In this document: positions 18,728 through 52,255 of the stretch, one piece after another
Layout: each line of letters starts with the position of its first letter
Numbering within the stretch: position 1 is the stretch's first letter
Assembly (NCBI GenBank): GCA_022565795.1
Contig: JAIUMA010000014.1
Coordinates: forward strand, 1-64,000
From: Balneolia bacterium
GTDB lineage: Bacteria > Bacteroidota > Rhodothermia > Balneolales > Cyclonatronaceae
Reading direction: 5' to 3'
DNA length: 64,000 nt
Program-made: the position numbers and the translations under genes
Notes under the pieces: generated by a model
What the model was told of the DNA's origin: nothing
Database searches by the model: none
The model's input: only the letters and a program-made list of their open reading frames with translations

Positions 18728-19969
18728 TTGAGTACTCTAGAAAAATCTCCCGAAACGGATAACTTAACCTACAATTTCCCGAATAGCTCGGGTTACTTCG
18801 GCAAGTTCGGCGGCAAGTTTGTCCCTGAAATACTCATTCCCGCTCTTGATGAACTGGAGCGCGAATACAAAGTAGCCAAAGATGATGAACAGTTTAAGAA
18901 GGAAAGACTCCATCATCTGAGAGAATATGTCGGACGCCCGACCCCATTAACGCTCACCGAAAGGCTTACCGAGCATTACGGTACCGGAAAGATCTATTTC
19001 AAACGAGAGGATCTATGCCACACCGGCGCGCATAAAATCAATAACACAATCGGTCAGGTTTTGTTGGCGATGCGTATGGGCAAAAAACGTATTATCGCGG
19101 AGACAGGTGCCGGACAGCACGGTGTTGCAACCGCAACGGTTTGCGCAAAGTTCGGTCTTGAGTGTATCGTTTACATGGGCGAAGAAGATATGCGCCGCCA
19201 GAAGCTTAACGTTGATCGTATGCGTCTTTTGGGTGCTGATGTGCGCTCAGTAACAAGCGGATCGCGTACGCTCAAAGATGCCACCAATGAAGCCATTCGC
19301 GACTGGGTTACAAATGTTGATGATACGTTTTACATCATTGGCTCGGTGGTGGGGCCGCACCCTTATCCAATGATGGTTCGTGATTTCCATGATGTAATCG
19401 GTCTGGAAACAGAAGCGCAGTGCCTGGAGATTGAGGGTCGTGACCCGGACTATATCCTGGCCTGTGTCGGGGGCGGATCAAATGCGATTGGGATTTTTCA
19501 TCGCTTTATCGACAAGAAGCACGTTAAGCTCATTGGCCTTGAAGCAGCCGGAGAGGGAGCCGAGACAAACAAAACGGCAGCCACATTTTCTAAAGGCCAG
19601 CCCGGTGTACTGCACGGCTCGCTCAGCTATTTGCTGCAAACGCATCAGGGGCAGATCGCTTTGGCGCATTCGATAAGCGCCGGACTGGACTATCCCGGTG
19701 TCGGGCCCGAACACTCGCACCTGTTCGATACAAAAAGAGTAGACTATCGCCCCGTAACCGATACGGAAGCGATGGATGCCGTGAAGCGTTGCTCTATGCT
19801 TGAAGGTATTATTCCCGCGATTGAAACTGCACACGCCATTGCATGGCTGGAAACGCTCATGCCGACCCTTACCAAAGACGATATTGTAGTAATTAACTGC
19901 AGCGGTCGCGGCGACAAAGACATGGGCACCATTTCTGAATATTTTTACGGAACCAACGGACAATCCTGA
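18728..19969 (+). CDS. trpB: Tryptophan synthase beta chain
   Basis: This enzyme joins indole and serine to form tryptophan. The 413-residue protein carries the PLP lysine Lys103 in [14 protein letters not shown], the catalytic region [13 protein letters not shown], the phosphate loop GGGSNAIG and the C-terminal GRGDKDM. The start appears to be TTG at 18728, as no ATG in frame lies near the family N-terminus. It is followed 3 bases later by trpA. The rest of the pathway lies 26 kb away, so this locus is under separate control; no Trp-codon leader is visible in the 140 bases upstream. Confidence 0.95.
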
Positions 19970-45849: not shown

Positions 45850-46287
45850 TTAAATACACACGGGGCAGCGGCCGTGTAAACGAATTTCCTGTTGCTTGAT
45901 TTCAAAACCGTGGAGATTCTGCCTGTTTATGGACAGCAGTTTCTCATCGATTGGAAAGCAGTAAATTTTCTCGCAGTCATCGCATATAAAATGCGCGTGA
46001 TTGTGAGATGAATTTTTATGGTTGTGGGCATGATCATCATAAATAGCATACAGCCAGTTACGATCTTCCGTAGCGACTTTATGGGCAAGACCTTTTTCGA
46101 CAAAACTGTTCAGCGTTCTGTAAAGCGTTACTTTGTCGATTGTTTCGTCGTCTAAGAGTTCGGAAATCTGCGCATGTGACATAGCCACATCAGAACCTGT
46201 AAGTAGCTCCATAACACGTAAGCGTATTCTGGTTGCCTTTAGATTGTGATTATGCAGTATCTCTTTGTGACGTTGTTCTCTTTCCAT
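45850..46287 (-). CDS. Fur-family metal regulator, probably Zur
   Basis: The 145-residue protein has the Fur winged helix (NLKATRIRLRVMELL, then SHAQISELLDDETIDKVTLYRTLNSFVEKGLAHKV). The structural zinc pairs are CDDC and CPVC, with cysteines near residues 99-102 and 141-144. A histidine-rich loop DDHAHNHKNSSHNHAH follows the wing. Histidine enrichment and its partner suggest a zinc sensor, though Fur or PerR cannot be excluded by eye. It is the first gene of a two-gene operon with the MerC-like protein, and a double palindrome (46306-46344) lies 18 bases upstream of its start codon, so it probably represses itself. Confidence 0.82.
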   Translation of the reverse strand: MEREQRHKEILHNHNLKATRIRLRVMELLTGSDVAMSHAQISELLDDETIDKVTLYRTLNSFVEKGLAHKVATEDRNWLYAIYDDHAHNHKNSSHNHAHFICDDCEKIYCFPIDEKLLSINRQNLHGFEIKQQEIRLHGRCPVCI

Positions 46288-46305: not shown

Positions 46306-46344
46306 TGCAACACGGTTGCAATAAGATTCTGCAACCGTGTTGCA
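46306..46344. promoter_or_regulatory. Double 15-bp palindrome, candidate Zur/Fur operator
   Basis: TGCAACACGGTTGCA (46306-46320) and TGCAACCGTGTTGCA (46330-46344) are exact reverse complements, separated by nine bases. Each half is itself a TGCAAC-N3-GTTGCA palindrome. The pair sits in the divergent gap, 18 bases from the regulator start, and within the upstream region of the trp leader. The arrangement fits a pair of regulator dimers on the autoregulated zur-merC promoter. Confidence 0.75.
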
Positions 46345-46436: not shown

Positions 46437-46465
46437 TTGACTTTAGCATCACTCACGTTTAAATT
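46437..46465 (+). promoter_or_regulatory. Candidate promoter of the trp operon leader
   Basis: TTGACT (46437-46442), a 17-base spacer and TAAATT (46460-46465) fit a sigma-70-like promoter. Transcription would start near 46472, at or just before the trpL start codon. The match is moderate, and Bacteroidota often use a different consensus, so this is only a candidate. Confidence 0.4.
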
Positions 46466-46472
46466 CATGCCC

Positions 46473-46523
46473 ATGCTAAAAAACGCAACACATATAAACT
46501 TTTGGTGGTGGTCAATTCGCTGA
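46473..46523 (+). CDS. trpL: trp leader peptide with three consecutive Trp codons
   Basis: An ATG at 46473 (or in-frame ATG at 46467) opens a frame that encodes MLKNATHINFWWWSIR and stops at TGA 46521-46523. The Trp codons are TGG-TGG-TGG at 46503-46511. A frame this short with three Trp codons in a row, directly ahead of trpE and of a pair of competing hairpins, is the signature of a ribosome-sensing leader. No strong Shine-Dalgarno is visible, which is normal for this group. Confidence 0.85.
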   Translation: MLKNATHINFWWWSIR

Positions 46524-46610
46524 GCGGATTGACTTTTCTTGTTGGTGTTAATTTAGCTAAAGAATGTCAGACCCGCTTCGTTTTATGTACGAGTGCGGGT
46601 TTTCTTGTTT
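46511..46610 (+). terminator. trp attenuator: pause, antiterminator and terminator hairpins
   Basis: Arm 1 is GTCAATTCGC (46511-46520) and arm 2 GCGGATTGAC (46524-46533); they form a 10-bp hairpin with one wobble that overlaps the leader stop. Arm 2 can instead pair with arm 3 (GTCA 46566-46569 and CCGC 46573-46576, as TGAC/GTCA and GCGG/CCGC). Arm 3 overlaps the 5' side of the terminator, ACCCGC (46571-46576) with GCGGGT (46595-46600) plus TCG/CGA, followed by TTTCTTGTTTT. Ribosome stalling at the Trp codons would cover arm 1 and free arm 2. Confidence 0.85.
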
Positions 46611-46642
46611 TATACCCTTGTGTTTTCATTTAATCATCCATA

Positions 46643-48115
46643 ATGACCTTAGAAGAATTTAAAAAGCTGGCCGGTAGTTACAACGCCATCCCTGTCTACA
46701 GGATGGCTCTTGCGGATACGCTTACACCTGTATCGGTTTTTATGAAAATCAGAAAGGGCGCGAACTTTCCGTTTCTGCTCGAGTCTGTTGAGGGCGGCGA
46801 GCAAATTGCACGTTATTCATTTCTTGGCAAGAATCCGTTTCAGGTATTCAGATTCGACGGAAAAAAGGCTTCACTGACATCAAAAAATGGTGATGTGAAA
46901 GATCTGGGCGGATCATACTACGAAGCCCTGAAGTCTCTCACAGATCCCCTGAAAGAACCAACGATCCCTGATCTGCCGCGTCTTACCGGCGGTGCGGTCG
47001 GTTTTTCCGCATACGATACTATTCGTCAGACCGAGCGCCTTCCTAATCAGCCGAAGGCCGATCTAGATATACCTGACGCCATCTGGTCTTTTTACGATCA
47101 GATCTACGCTTTCGACCACGTGAAGCATCGGATTGTTATGATCAAAACGGTCTTCACAGAAGGTTTGTCCGAGGCTGAAACTGAAGATGCATATCATGAT
47201 GCAGTAGCCGCACTTGATGAAATGGAAGCGGAGCTGCTTTCAGGCTATGAGCGTACTACACCGCTTGAAATTACCACGAAAGGCATCGAAAGCAACATCA
47301 CAAGGGAAGACTTTCATGCTATGGTGGAGAAGTCGAAAGAGTATATTTATGAAGGTGACATTTTCCAGGTGGTTTTGTCACAGCGGTTCAAAAGCAGCTT
47401 CAGCGGCGACCGATTCATGCTCTATCGCGCGTTGAGAATGGTTAATCCATCGCCGTATTTGTTCTATCTGGACTTCAGTGATTTTGCGCTGGTTGGATCG
47501 TCGCCTGAGGTACTTGTTTCTGTTCAGAACGGCATCACTAAAGTATTGCCGATTGCGGGCACGCGGCCCAGAGGTAAAACAACTATCGAGGATAACCAGC
47601 TGGCGGAGGAGCTGGCTGCTGACCATAAAGAGGTCGCTGAGCACATCATGCTGGTGGACCTCGGCCGAAACGATTTGTCCAGAATTTGCAAGCCGGGCAC
47701 GGTTAAGCTTACCAAGAATCAGGTAATTGAGCGCTATTCTCACGTGATGCATATCGTGAGTGAAGTGACCGGCGATCTGGGTGAAAACTCCCATCCGGTT
47801 GACGCGCTTCAGCACTGCTTTCCGGCTGGCACGGTAAGCGGTGCGCCAAAGGTAAGAGCCATGGAAATTATCGACGAGCTGGAGCCTGTAAAACGCGGCC
47901 CTTATGCAGGCGCTGTAGGCTATTTCGACTTTTCCGGAAATATGGACACCTGTATCGCCATCCGCACCATGGTAGCCACAGACTCCGATATCTTCATACA
48001 GGCTGGAGCCGGAATTGTGGCCGACAGCGTTCCGGATAACGAGTACAAAGAGACTGAAAATAAAGCACGGGCGCTTTTTGAAGCGCTTAAAGTAGCCATC
48101 AGGCTTCAGCAATAA
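46643..48115 (+). CDS. trpE: Anthranilate synthase component I
   Basis: TrpE converts chorismate to anthranilate with ammonia supplied by TrpG. The 490-residue protein has the N-terminal feedback region (FLLESVEGGEQIARYSFLG, carrying the LLES-type tryptophan site) and the catalytic core: IYEGDIFQVVLSQRF, LFYLDFSDFALVGSSPEVLV, PIAGTRPRGKT, LVDLGRNDLSRI, CFPAGTVSGAPKVRAMEII and the C-terminal AGAGIVADSVPDNEY. It is the first structural gene behind the attenuator and should be both feedback-inhibited and attenuated. Confidence 0.96.
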   Translation: MTLEEFKKLAGSYNAIPVYRMALADTLTPVSVFMKIRKGANFPFLLESVEGGEQIARYSFLGKNPFQVFRFDGKKASLTSKNGDVKDLGGSYYEALKSLTDPLKEPTIPDLPRLTGGAVGFSAYDTIRQTERLPNQPKADLDIPDAIWSFYDQIYAFDHVKHRIVMIKTVFTEGLSEAETEDAYHDAVAALDEMEAELLSGYERTTPLEITTKGIESNITREDFHAMVEKSKEYIYEGDIFQVVLSQRFKSSFSGDRFMLYRALRMVNPSPYLFYLDFSDFALVGSSPEVLVSVQNGITKVLPIAGTRPRGKTTIEDNQLAEELAADHKEVAEHIMLVDLGRNDLSRICKPGTVKLTKNQVIERYSHVMHIVSEVTGDLGENSHPVDALQHCFPAGTVSGAPKVRAMEIIDELEPVKRGPYAGAVGYFDFSGNMDTCIAIRTMVATDSDIFIQAGAGIVADSVPDNEYKETENKARALFEALKVAIRLQQ

Positions 48116-48155
48116 TTGTTAAGCAGATAAACTATATTCATTTCGAAATCTCAAT

Positions 48156-49154
48156 ATGAGTACATCAGTAAGCAGTTCGAAAACCATACTCTCCGGAATC
48201 ACTCCTTCGGGCCGGCTTCACGTGGGCAACTACTTCGGGGCTATGAAACAGCACCTGGACTTTATCGAAAAAGGTGACGCTTTCTACTTCATAGCTAACT
48301 ACCATGCGCTCACCTCACTGCGCGATGGCGAGCTTCTGAAGCAGTATACGCTGGACGTTGCAATCGACTATTTATCGCTCGGTCTCAATCCGGAAAAATG
48401 TACGTTCTTTGCACAAAGCGACGTGCCGGCGGTTACCGAGCTGGCATGGATCCTGGGCAGCCTGTGCCCGGTAAGCCTGATGGAAAAAGGCGTGGCATAT
48501 AAAGACAAAGTGGCTCAGGGACTAGCTCCGAACATCGGTCTTTTCACCTATCCAATTCTTCAGGCAGCAGACATTCTGATTTATCATTCGGATATCGTGC
48601 CGGTAGGGGCAGATCAAAAGCAGAATCTTGAATTCTCCCGTGATCTGGCCCAAAAACTAAACAATGCCTACGGTGAAAATCTGCTTCGTTTGCCGGAACC
48701 CTACATCGTAAAAGATGTAGCAATTGTACCGGGTATCGACGGCCGCAAAATGAGCAAGTCGTACAACAATCACATTTTTATTTTTGATGAAGGCAAAGTT
48801 CTCAAGAAAAAGGTGATGTCCATACAGACCGACGCCACTGCTCTGGAGGACCCTAAAGATCCTGATAGCTGCAATGTTTTCAGCCTGATTAAGCTTTTTG
48901 CCGAAAAAGACAAGCTGGCTGAAATCCGCGAGTCCTATGAGGCAGGTGGTTACGGATACGGTCATGCCAAGAAAGAGCTGCTCGCATTGTTTTCAGACTA
49001 CTTTGCGGAGGCCCGGGAGCGTCGTAAAGAGCTGGAGAAGGATACCGATACCGTTATGGACATTCTGCGTGAAGGTGGCCGTAAAGCCCGTGAGCGCGCT
49101 GAAACGGTGATGGAGCCCATCCGTGAAGCCACAGGAATTATTCGCACGCATTAA
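48156..49154 (+). CDS. trpS: Tryptophanyl-tRNA synthetase
   Basis: This class I synthetase charges tRNA-Trp. The 332-residue protein has the HIGH-type motif ITPSGRLHVGNYFGAM (residues 17-32), the tryptophan-binding QAADILIYHSDIVPVGADQKQNLE, and the KMSKS loop GRKMSKSYNNHI near residue 200. Length is normal. The gene is inserted between trpE and trpG, 40 bases from each, so its expression falls under the trp leader. This would tie charging capacity to tryptophan supply. Confidence 0.96.
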   Translation: MSTSVSSSKTILSGITPSGRLHVGNYFGAMKQHLDFIEKGDAFYFIANYHALTSLRDGELLKQYTLDVAIDYLSLGLNPEKCTFFAQSDVPAVTELAWILGSLCPVSLMEKGVAYKDKVAQGLAPNIGLFTYPILQAADILIYHSDIVPVGADQKQNLEFSRDLAQKLNNAYGENLLRLPEPYIVKDVAIVPGIDGRKMSKSYNNHIFIFDEGKVLKKKVMSIQTDATALEDPKDPDSCNVFSLIKLFAEKDKLAEIRESYEAGGYGYGHAKKELLALFSDYFAEARERRKELEKDTDTVMDILREGGRKARERAETVMEPIREATGIIRTH

Positions 49155-49193: not shown

Positions 49194-49757
49194 ATGATTC
49201 TGATAATAGATAACTACGATTCCTTTACGTACAACCTGGTTCACCTCGTTGCAGCCCATACTGATGAGTATAAGGTTATTCGGAATGACGCCATCACCAT
49301 AGAAGAGGTAAGGGCGCTCAAACCTTCCAAGATTTTGATTTCGCCCGGGCCGGGTCGTCCGGAAAATGCCGGGATTACAGAAGCGCTCATTCGAGAACTG
49401 GGGCAAACCACTCCTGTGCTTGGCGTTTGCCTGGGCTACCAGGCCATCGGCAACGTTTTCGGCGCAAAAGTAACGCACGCGCCAAGCCTGATGCACGGTA
49501 AAACATCCGTTATTGAACACGATAGTTCGGGCATCTTCAACAACGTGGAGCAAAACTTTACCGCCACCCGCTATCACTCTTTGGTACTTGAGCCTGACTC
49601 CATTCCCGATGTGCTCCAGATAACATGCAAAACGCCTGATGGCGTGATTATGGGCGTAAAACACAAAGATTACCCGGTTGAAGGCATTCAGTTTCATCCG
49701 GAAAGCATTCTTACCACCGAAGGACCAAAACTAATTGAGAACTGGATCAAATCGTGA
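49194..49757 (+). CDS. trpG: Anthranilate synthase component II (glutamine amidotransferase)
   Basis: TrpG hydrolyses glutamine and delivers ammonia to TrpE. The 187-residue class I amidotransferase has the nucleophile motif GVCLGYQAIG (Cys near residue 81), the oxyanion ISPGPGRPENAG, and the catalytic His-Glu pair in GIQFHPESI. It might also serve folate synthesis as PabA, which is common when a single copy exists. It follows trpS and precedes trpD by 14 bases. Confidence 0.95.
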   Translation: MILIIDNYDSFTYNLVHLVAAHTDEYKVIRNDAITIEEVRALKPSKILISPGPGRPENAGITEALIRELGQTTPVLGVCLGYQAIGNVFGAKVTHAPSLMHGKTSVIEHDSSGIFNNVEQNFTATRYHSLVLEPDSIPDVLQITCKTPDGVIMGVKHKDYPVEGIQFHPESILTTEGPKLIENWIKS

Positions 49758-49771
49758 TCCGGTAAATAGCT

Positions 49772-50812
49772 ATGAGTTTACATTCGTTTAGCGAACCGCT
49801 TGAGCATCTGGCCTCAGGCAAAGACTTTACCCGTGAGCAGGCCAGACAGGCTCTTATGTTTGTGATTAATGGTGATGTCAATGATGCCCAAATGGCTGCC
49901 TTCCTGTTTGGGATGCGCCAAAAAGGGGAAACATCAGATGAGGTTACCGGCTTTGTTGAAGCCATGAGAAGCGCAACTATTTCCATCGACGTAAACACTG
50001 ATGGCGCCGTGGATCTTTGCGGAACCGGAGGTGATCACAGCGGAAGCTTCAATATATCAACGGCTGCGATGTTCGTAACGGCCGGAGCCGGAGTGCCTGT
50101 TTTGAAACACGGAAACCGAAGCATATCCAGCAAAAGCGGAAGTTTTGATGTCCTGGAATCACTCGGAGTGGTGCCTGATCTTAAGCCAGAGTCGGCTAAG
50201 GTATGTTTTGAGCAGACGGGACTCACTTTTATGTTTGCGCCCCTGTATCATCCGGCTATGAAATACGTGATGCCTTCCCGGCGAGCGCTCGGCATGCGAA
50301 CGTTTTTCAATATAATGGGTCCGCTCCTGAATCCTGCCGGAGTAAAGCGACAGGTTGTCGGAACCTATAACGCTGATACAGCACGTCTTTCTGCTGAAAT
50401 TCTCCATAATCTTGGATCAGAAGCCGCGATTACCGTTCACTCGGCTGATGGCATGGATGAGTTTAGCACGGCTTCTACATCTGATTTCTATGAGGTGAAC
50501 GGCGAAATACCCGGACAATCCCGTATGTTTGATCCGGCAACGGTTGGCATCACCCTATCCACACACGAAGATCTTAAGGGAGGAGATAAGGATGTCAATG
50601 CCGGTATCATCCTCGATATCCTCAATAATAAGGCGACATCAGAACAGACCGATATCGTAGTTCTGAATGCTGCGTTTGCCATTTTGGTGTCCGGTAAGAC
50701 CGCCAATATAGCTGATGCGCTTGCCCTTGCGCGGGAAAGCGTGAAAAGCGGGGCAGCAAAACAAAAACTGGAAGATATGAAGCAGGCAAGTCGGGATTTA
50801 AAACATGCTTAA
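49772..50812 (+). CDS. trpD: Anthranilate phosphoribosyltransferase
   Basis: TrpD transfers the phosphoribosyl group from PRPP to anthranilate. The 346-residue protein has the PRPP loop LCGTGGDHSGSFNISTA, the KHGNRSISSKSGSFDVLESLG anthranilate region, HPAMKYVMPSRRALGMRTFFNIMGPLLNP, and HSADGMDEFSTAS. Its N-terminus has the small helical domain. It overlaps trpC by 8 bases, indicating translational coupling. Confidence 0.95.
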   Translation: MSLHSFSEPLEHLASGKDFTREQARQALMFVINGDVNDAQMAAFLFGMRQKGETSDEVTGFVEAMRSATISIDVNTDGAVDLCGTGGDHSGSFNISTAAMFVTAGAGVPVLKHGNRSISSKSGSFDVLESLGVVPDLKPESAKVCFEQTGLTFMFAPLYHPAMKYVMPSRRALGMRTFFNIMGPLLNPAGVKRQVVGTYNADTARLSAEILHNLGSEAAITVHSADGMDEFSTASTSDFYEVNGEIPGQSRMFDPATVGITLSTHEDLKGGDKDVNAGIILDILNNKATSEQTDIVVLNAAFAILVSGKTANIADALALARESVKSGAAKQKLEDMKQASRDLKHA

Positions 50813-51608
50813 CTCAGCCCAAACGACGATTCTTGATAAAATTGTTGATCAAACCAGAGCAGATCTGATTGCAAAAAAGAAACAGACCGCTCAATCTGAT
50901 TTCAGGAGTTTTGAGTTATACGATAGTCCACGCCGTGACTTCAAATCCGCCCTTAAGCGTGATGATGATCAGGTGAAAATCATTGCTGAGGTGAAGAAAG
51001 CGTCTCCTTCAAAAGGAATCATACGTGAAGACTTTGAGCCGGTAAAAACGGCCGTACAGTATAATGAGGGCGGTGCGGCTGCGATATCAGTCTTAACGGA
51101 ACCACGTTTTTTCCAGGGTGACCTTGAGTATCTCAAGTCAATTCGTCCTGAAGTAGACCTTCCGCTTTTAAGGAAAGACTTTATTATCGATTTCTATCAG
51201 ATTGAAGAAGCACGGGCCTACGGAGCCGACGCCATCCTTCTCATTGTCGGAATCACCAGCGGAGCACAGCTTGAGGAGCTGCATCACGCTGCCACTGAAG
51301 CCGGATTGAAATGCCTTGTTGAGTGTTACACTCAGGAGGAGTATGAGACCCTGTCGTTTAATCAGGTTGAAATTCTCGGCGTTAACAACAGAAACCTGAA
51401 GAACTTTGACGTTGACCTTCATAGGGGCCTCGAAATATTGAGTCAGGCACCTGAGGGCGTTATCCGCGTATCCGAAAGCGGAATCACGAGCCCCGATGAC
51501 CTTAATATTATAGCTGAGTACAATTGTGATGCCGCCCTTATTGGTGAGCACTTCATGCGCCAGCCACATCCCGGAGATGCCGTTAAACGAATTCTTGATC
51601 GTAGCTGA
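50805..51608 (+). CDS. trpC: Indole-3-glycerol phosphate synthase
   Basis: TrpC closes the indole ring of indole-3-glycerol phosphate. The 267-residue TIM barrel shows IIAEVKKASPSKGIIREDF with the catalytic lysines, LPLLRKDFIIDFYQI, GADAILLIV, LGVNNRNLKNFDVDL and VSESGI. It starts inside trpD (8-base overlap) and its stop overlaps the trpF start by one base, so trpD, trpC and trpF are coupled. Confidence 0.95.
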   Translation: MLNSAQTTILDKIVDQTRADLIAKKKQTAQSDFRSFELYDSPRRDFKSALKRDDDQVKIIAEVKKASPSKGIIREDFEPVKTAVQYNEGGAAAISVLTEPRFFQGDLEYLKSIRPEVDLPLLRKDFIIDFYQIEEARAYGADAILLIVGITSGAQLEELHHAATEAGLKCLVECYTQEEYETLSFNQVEILGVNNRNLKNFDVDLHRGLEILSQAPEGVIRVSESGITSPDDLNIIAEYNCDAALIGEHFMRQPHPGDAVKRILDRS

Positions 51609-52255
51609 TGAACGTCTCTGAGTCAAAACATCATCCACTGATTAAGATCTGCGGCATTACCCGTAAAGACGATGCGAAGCACGCTGCAGATTCAGGGGCC
51701 GATTTTTTGGGTTTTATATTCGTAGAAAACACGCCGCGTTATATCGAGCCGAACGCTGCGGGAAAAATAAGCAGCTCTGTTCAAAACGCTGACTATGTTG
51801 GCGTTTTTATGGACGAAGACCCTGAGAAAGTAAATACCATAGCAGAACTGTCTGGTTTGAGCTTCTTACAGCTCCACGGTGATGAATCACCGGAGTACTG
51901 CCAGCAGATGAGACTGCCGATCATCAAAGCGTTTCGGATTAAGCCGGATATGGACGAAGATGATATCTATAAGCTCATATCACCTTACAAAAACTGTGCT
52001 GAGTATGTGCTGCTCGATGCATGGCATCCGGACGCTGCAGGAGGAACCGGACATACTTTCGACTGGAGTACAGCTAAAAAGCTCCATAAAGATTTCCGGA
52101 TCATACTTGCCGGAGGACTAAAACCGGAGAACGTAAAACATGCGGTTCAAGCGGTAAAACCTTTCGGAATCGACGTTTCGAGCGGGGTGGAGATCAGCCC
52201 GGGGATAAAAGATCATGATAAGATATCTCAACTGATTGAATCAGTTAGAAGCTGA
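51608..52255 (+). CDS. trpF: Phosphoribosylanthranilate isomerase
   Basis: TrpF isomerises phosphoribosylanthranilate by an Amadori rearrangement. The 215-residue protein has the catalytic cysteine in KICGITRKDDA, FLGFIFVENTPRYI, YVGVFMDE, LHGDESPEYC, the catalytic Asp in LLDAWHPDAAGGTGHTFDW, and AGGLKPENV plus DVSSGVEISPGIKD. The start codon overlaps the trpC stop (TGATG). It is a separate protein, not fused to TrpC as in E. coli. It converges on ftsE with a gap of about 10 bases and is the last gene of the operon. Confidence 0.95.
   Translation: MNVSESKHHPLIKICGITRKDDAKHAADSGADFLGFIFVENTPRYIEPNAAGKISSSVQNADYVGVFMDEDPEKVNTIAELSGLSFLQLHGDESPEYCQQMRLPIIKAFRIKPDMDEDDIYKLISPYKNCAEYVLLDAWHPDAAGGTGHTFDWSTAKKLHKDFRIILAGGLKPENVKHAVQAVKPFGIDVSSGVEISPGIKDHDKISQLIESVRS

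Follow-up and report, generated by a model that had tools for sequence, protein, structure and literature searches.

A probable E. coli-type tryptophan attenuator with a predicted near-leaderless leader ahead of the trpS-containing trp operon of Balneolales

Here, we describe a leader region in a Balneolales genome that very probably acts as an E. coli-type ribosome-mediated transcription attenuator controlling trpE-trpS-trpG-trpD-trpC-trpF. A short frame with consecutive Trp codons stands ahead of the operon, followed by a terminator and an antiterminator that exclude one another because they share one arm (arm 3). We propose that transcription begins about one base ahead of the leader ATG, so that the ribosome would load on a nearly leaderless message. 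When Trp-tRNA is ample, a ribosome at the stop codon would cover arm 2, leaving 3:4 to pair and transcription to end; when Trp-tRNA is scarce, the ribosome would stall on the three Trp codons and cover arm 1, leaving 2:3 to pair and allowing readthrough.

The window, the whole 64-kb stretch of DNA that we analysed, belongs to a genome whose phylum is named Bacteroidota in GTDB and Balneolota in NCBI, and the closest named match of its trpE is that of a Balneolia MAG (87%). The leader lies between a Fur-family gene, the nearest upstream, and trpE (Table 1); since this gene faces the other way, the 46570-46601 hairpin is not the terminator of an upstream gene. In the interval from the Fur/Zur-like regulator gene to the trp promoter, TGCAACNNNGTTGCA occurs twice (46306-46320 and 46330-46344); L002/L031 likewise carry two copies and L003-L005 a single one, and these repeats are possibly the regulator's own operator. 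A preliminary description of this DNA had reported a 16-codon frame with WWW ahead of trpE, which we recover in the same place. A second in-frame ATG at 46467 precedes the predicted transcript start, making ATG 46473 the better start codon, a choice also backed by the promoter position and by MLINTFNKNFWWW in the closest relative (L002/L031).

Table 1. Features of the trp leader and operon in the window
Feature	Position	Strand	Remarks
Fur-family gene	45850-46287	-	opposite to trp operon
Predicted promoter, TTGACT-N17-TAAATT	46437-46465	+	Bacteroidota style TTG-N20-TAnnTT; predicted transcript start 46472
Leader peptide frame, MLKNATHINFWWWSIR then stop	ATG 46473 to TGA 46521-46523	+	16 codons; predicted 5' UTR ~1 nt
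Three consecutive TGG, putative Trp-tRNA sensor	46503-46511	+	TGG runs common to class leaders
1:2 hairpin, GTCAATTCGC-TGA-GCGGATTGAC	46511-46533	+	dG -14.0 kcal/mol; arm 1 46511-46520, loop = stop codon, arm 2 46524-46533
Antiterminator 2:3 (GCGG/CCGC, TGAC/GTCA, TTCTT/AAGAA)	46524-46576	+	dG -15 to -17 kcal/mol, ribosome stalled
3:4 intrinsic terminator and T-tract	46570-46612	+	stem 46570-46601, dG about -16.2 to -16.5 kcal/mol
trpE, anthranilate synthase component I	46643-48115	+	TIGR00564, 554 bits
trpS, tryptophan-tRNA ligase	48156-49154	+	TIGR00233, 281 bits; sole copy found in genome
trpG	49194-49757	+	TIGR00566
trpD	49772-50812	+	TIGR01245
trpC	50805-51608	+	NF001377
trpF	51608-52255	+	NF002298

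The same description had drawn a pause hairpin at 46511-46533, a terminator at 46571-46610 and, exclusive of both, an antiterminator joining GCGG (46524-46527) to CCGC (46573-46576) and TGAC (46530-46533) to GTCA (46566-46569). Folding bears out all three elements, the pause hairpin as the 1:2 hairpin and the antiterminator with both claimed pairings, but the latter extends further than had been claimed, since TTCTT/AAGAA adds an inner helix; energies of the 1:2 and 3:4 hairpins can be compared with the 2:3 form in Table 1. The leader folds better than its dinucleotide shuffles (z = -2.3). With a ribosome mask on the leader's Trp codons in the window and the polymerase having just cleared arm 3, the best fold is the 2:3 form, whereas a mask at the stop codon blocks 2:3 and the terminator forms, although the antiterminator probability in that state is 0.23, not zero, in the window itself. 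Stalled and terminating ribosomes are thus predicted to favour opposite folds. An equilibrium fold of the whole leader favours the terminator even in the stalled state, as would be expected of a kinetic switch, so that the switching argument turns on the presumed sequence of co-transcriptional events.

The window's T-tract, TTTTCTTGTTTT, is broken, with four T before the first interruption where most relatives carry 6-9 uninterrupted T, and termination in the window may therefore be leaky. This feature would suit a reading in which the leader of this species works chiefly at the level of translation or by Rho-dependent termination, its intrinsic terminator playing a minor part. We consider this very unlikely, as the window's stem is as strong as those of relatives (-16.2 versus about -13 to -22), a U-rich tail remains, and the T-tracts of the relatives are uninterrupted.

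We took the region ahead of trpE from 143 genomes of the class (109 Balneolales and 34 others) and found a WW or WWW leader with a terminator in 96 of the Balneolales and 24 of the others (120/143), while WW frames on the reverse strand, a control for chance, occur in 4 of the 143 regions. All 120 leaders have a run of 2-4 TGG codons (three in 104), yet the peptides vary nearly everywhere except in this run; the distance from the last Trp codon to the terminator is 61.9 +/- 4.1 nt. The stop codon lies within 12 nt of the last Trp codon in 25 of the 96 Balneolales leaders, including that of the window, and 27-39 nt past it in 62, where inspection of the sequences places it beyond arm 2; with either anatomy, the terminating ribosome would cover arm 2. 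Elsewhere in the phylum, 47 of 69 sampled genomes have a Trp-rich leader ahead of trpE and 22 have none. WW or WWW frames ahead of trpE also occur in three Candidatus Hydrogenedentota loci (L071, L073 and L077).

Thirteen Balneolales lack a WW leader: G066, G080, G120, G010 and nine members of genus g29 (G074, G089, G099, G101, G108 and G125-G128; loci L177, L174, L167, L191, L170, L189, L180, L190 and L198). G066 reads WCW and G080 reads WRW in leaders that are otherwise intact, and the region of G120, counted here among the 13, is cut by a contig end. The leader is thus not indispensable, judging from G010 and the sampled g29 members. The g29 members have lost the WW leader, and two of them, G074 and G089, retain the terminator hairpin ahead of trpE, so a terminator can stand alone there, as it would everywhere if the leader frame had arisen by chance and the hairpin were a plain unregulated or protein-regulated terminator. 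That reading is extremely improbable given how Trp runs persist across the class in otherwise variable peptides, how rarely they appear on the reverse strand, and how arm 3 covaries with arms 2 and 4, as follows.

Pair counts come from a structure-blind alignment of 26 leaders, chosen because MAFFT placed arm 2 wrongly between subgroups in an alignment of 70; they cover 2:3 and 3:4, the 1:2 columns differing between subgroups. The 2:3 helix is paired in 84.6% of cells and the 3:4 helix in 95.1%, with 23 and 13 both-side changes, respectively, and both exceed all shuffles (500 for 2:3) and all slides in cells paired and in covariation score. An A/G switch at arm-3 column 96 is compensated by U/C in arm 2 (10 both-side changes) and again in arm 4 (12 both-side changes), which fits the prediction from mutually exclusive helices that one base should track two partners. 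Masked folding of the 96 Balneolales leaders yields the antiterminator in 96/96 stalled states versus 1/96 stop states, and in 21% of shuffled segments. Observed 2:3 duplexes are also more stable (-13.9 to -20.7) than those with swapped partners (-9.7 to -12.9), compared as group means because arms are alike within a clade and a pooled ranking is therefore weakly informative. The preliminary description had suggested aligning relatives and had stated that their lacking the leader frame and hairpins would refute it; instead, both the leader frame and the hairpins persist across Balneolales, with the 2:3 and 3:4 helices covarying. Together with the opposite masked folds, this supports the E. coli-type stalling mechanism that it had put forward.

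The Bacteroidota-style promoter motif TTG-N20-TAnnTT (N21 in one case) stands ahead of all 96 Balneolales leaders, as against an occurrence anywhere in 4.7% of shuffled regions. The transcript start predicted from this consensus differs from the leader start codon by -1 to +4 nt in 96/96 and lies 0-4 nt upstream in 94/96, suggesting that the Balneolales trp leader is leaderless or nearly so. In Flavobacterium psychrophilum, whose TAnnTTTG box occupies -12 to -5, leaderless messages make up only 5.5% and 5' UTRs have a median length of 24 nt (PMC9723704), so a leaderless trp leader has probably been selected and does not reflect a general habit. The few other genes of the window that carry the promoter motif are predicted to have UTRs of 27-54 nt. 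In nine genomes outside the class (G427, G388, G285, G346, G293, G254, G316, G267 and G386), a TAnnTTTG box stands 12-15 nt ahead of the trp leader ATG, and near-leaderless leaders may thus be common in the phylum.

Other known Trp regulators are absent or rare. TrpR (PF01371) has no match in the window's own genome and exceeds the cut-off in just one of the 117 genomes searched, G074 of genus g29, the single such case in the order. TRAP/mtrB (PF02081) was found in 0/117 genomes and the T-box (RF00230) likewise in 0/117, under stricter search filters that lose weak matches. At the Rfam gathering threshold the leader has no match, tRNA alone being matched; the Trp_leader model RF00513 aligns to the window over its full length and in register at 23.6 bits (E 0.01), below its 41-bit cut-off, and has no match in the window's own genome at E<=0.001. 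The search was limited to known families, which leaves room for another Trp sensor on the same hairpins (TRAP-like, T-box or an unknown RNA-binding protein), but that TRAP and T-box are unmatched in 117 genomes and that none of these sensors would need in-frame Trp codons makes the idea scarcely credible.

The attenuator stands ahead of an unusual gene order. In all 100 Balneolales genomes with both genes listed, trpS lies directly 3' of trpE in the same orientation (median gap between matches across the order's genomes, 70 nt), whereas sampled loci elsewhere in the phylum have the order trpE-trpG instead. The gene gives a single match in the window's own genome and is single in the order's genomes too, apart from cases in which it seems to be divided by the end of a contig; trpS is presumably essential. 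A search for an internal promoter ahead of trpS in the window (47851-48170) returned no consensus match. The sole trpS thus appears to be part of the trp attenuation circuit, probably co-transcribed with trpE. Given its place as second gene, a drop in tRNA-Trp charging would increase the synthetase as well as tryptophan synthesis.

Beyond the operon, trpB lies 27 kb away in the window (18791-19942) with no WW or Trp leader ahead of it, and no Phe leader was found ahead of the prephenate dehydratase gene. Short His-rich frames (HHH or more) stand ahead of hisG in the window's own genome (L340) and at L338, L341, L342, L344, L345 and L347, and their presence in several family members suggests a His attenuator too.

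E. coli trpL combines a short Trp-rich leader with 1:2, 2:3 and 3:4 folding and a stop codon near the loop of the 1:2 hairpin. The window shares all of these, with the subthreshold full-length match to the corresponding model, and Balneolales differ from E. coli in having almost no predicted 5' UTR, trpS in the operon, no TrpR (G074 excepted) and, for most leaders, the long stop-codon spacing described above. A leaderless message starting from the ATG and attenuation without a repressor recall trpL/rnTrpL of Sinorhizobium meliloti (PMC7298713), an Alphaproteobacterium where attenuation concerns trpE(G) only and the leader peptide has trans functions. Streptomyces trpL1 is likewise a leaderless WWW leader (MFAHSTRNWWWTAHPAAH) ahead of trpE, a leaderless trpL message being known in S. 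lividans (PMC8079986), and trpL2 is an attenuator ahead of trpS (PMC1262725); Streptomyces trpE and trpS are, however, two separate monocistronic units, while Balneolales have one attenuator ahead of both.

The mechanism is classical, and its distribution and wiring, with this gene order, seem to be what is under-described. An attenuation survey by Lopatovskaya et al. (2010; doi 10.1134/S0026893310010164) may include Bacteroidetes. According to another survey from 2010, leader-peptide systems had been known in Proteobacteria and Actinobacteria alone, to which it added Firmicutes (PMC2965389), so the earlier remark that such attenuators are best known from Proteobacteria and may be under-described here was fair for this lineage. 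It does not carry over to novelty in Bacteroidota, since a 2021 report on F. psychrophilum, of the same GTDB phylum, found 'strong clues' for leader-peptide attenuation ahead of amino-acid operons (PMC9723704), predicted in general terms in its main text and without Balneolota or trpS. Our analysis adds to the preliminary description the predicted near-leaderless start of the leader, trpS in the operon and leaders elsewhere in the phylum.

These findings extend, with covariation, a textbook mechanism to Balneolota/Rhodothermia and much of Bacteroidota, for which the literature searched yielded general mention only, and they provide a case of a sole, presumably essential aminoacyl-tRNA synthetase behind a starvation-sensing terminator. 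We lean slightly towards a model in which all Balneolales place their sole TrpRS and tryptophan synthesis under one near-leaderless Trp-codon attenuator, so that charged tRNA-Trp would feed back on both the amino acid and its synthetase, and in which leaderless starts may couple the first ribosome to RNA polymerase in a phylum where Shine-Dalgarno pairing plays little part. Attenuation depends on transcription and translation being closely coupled, and its broad occurrence in this phylum, where translation initiation is unusual, would allow such coupling to be tested.
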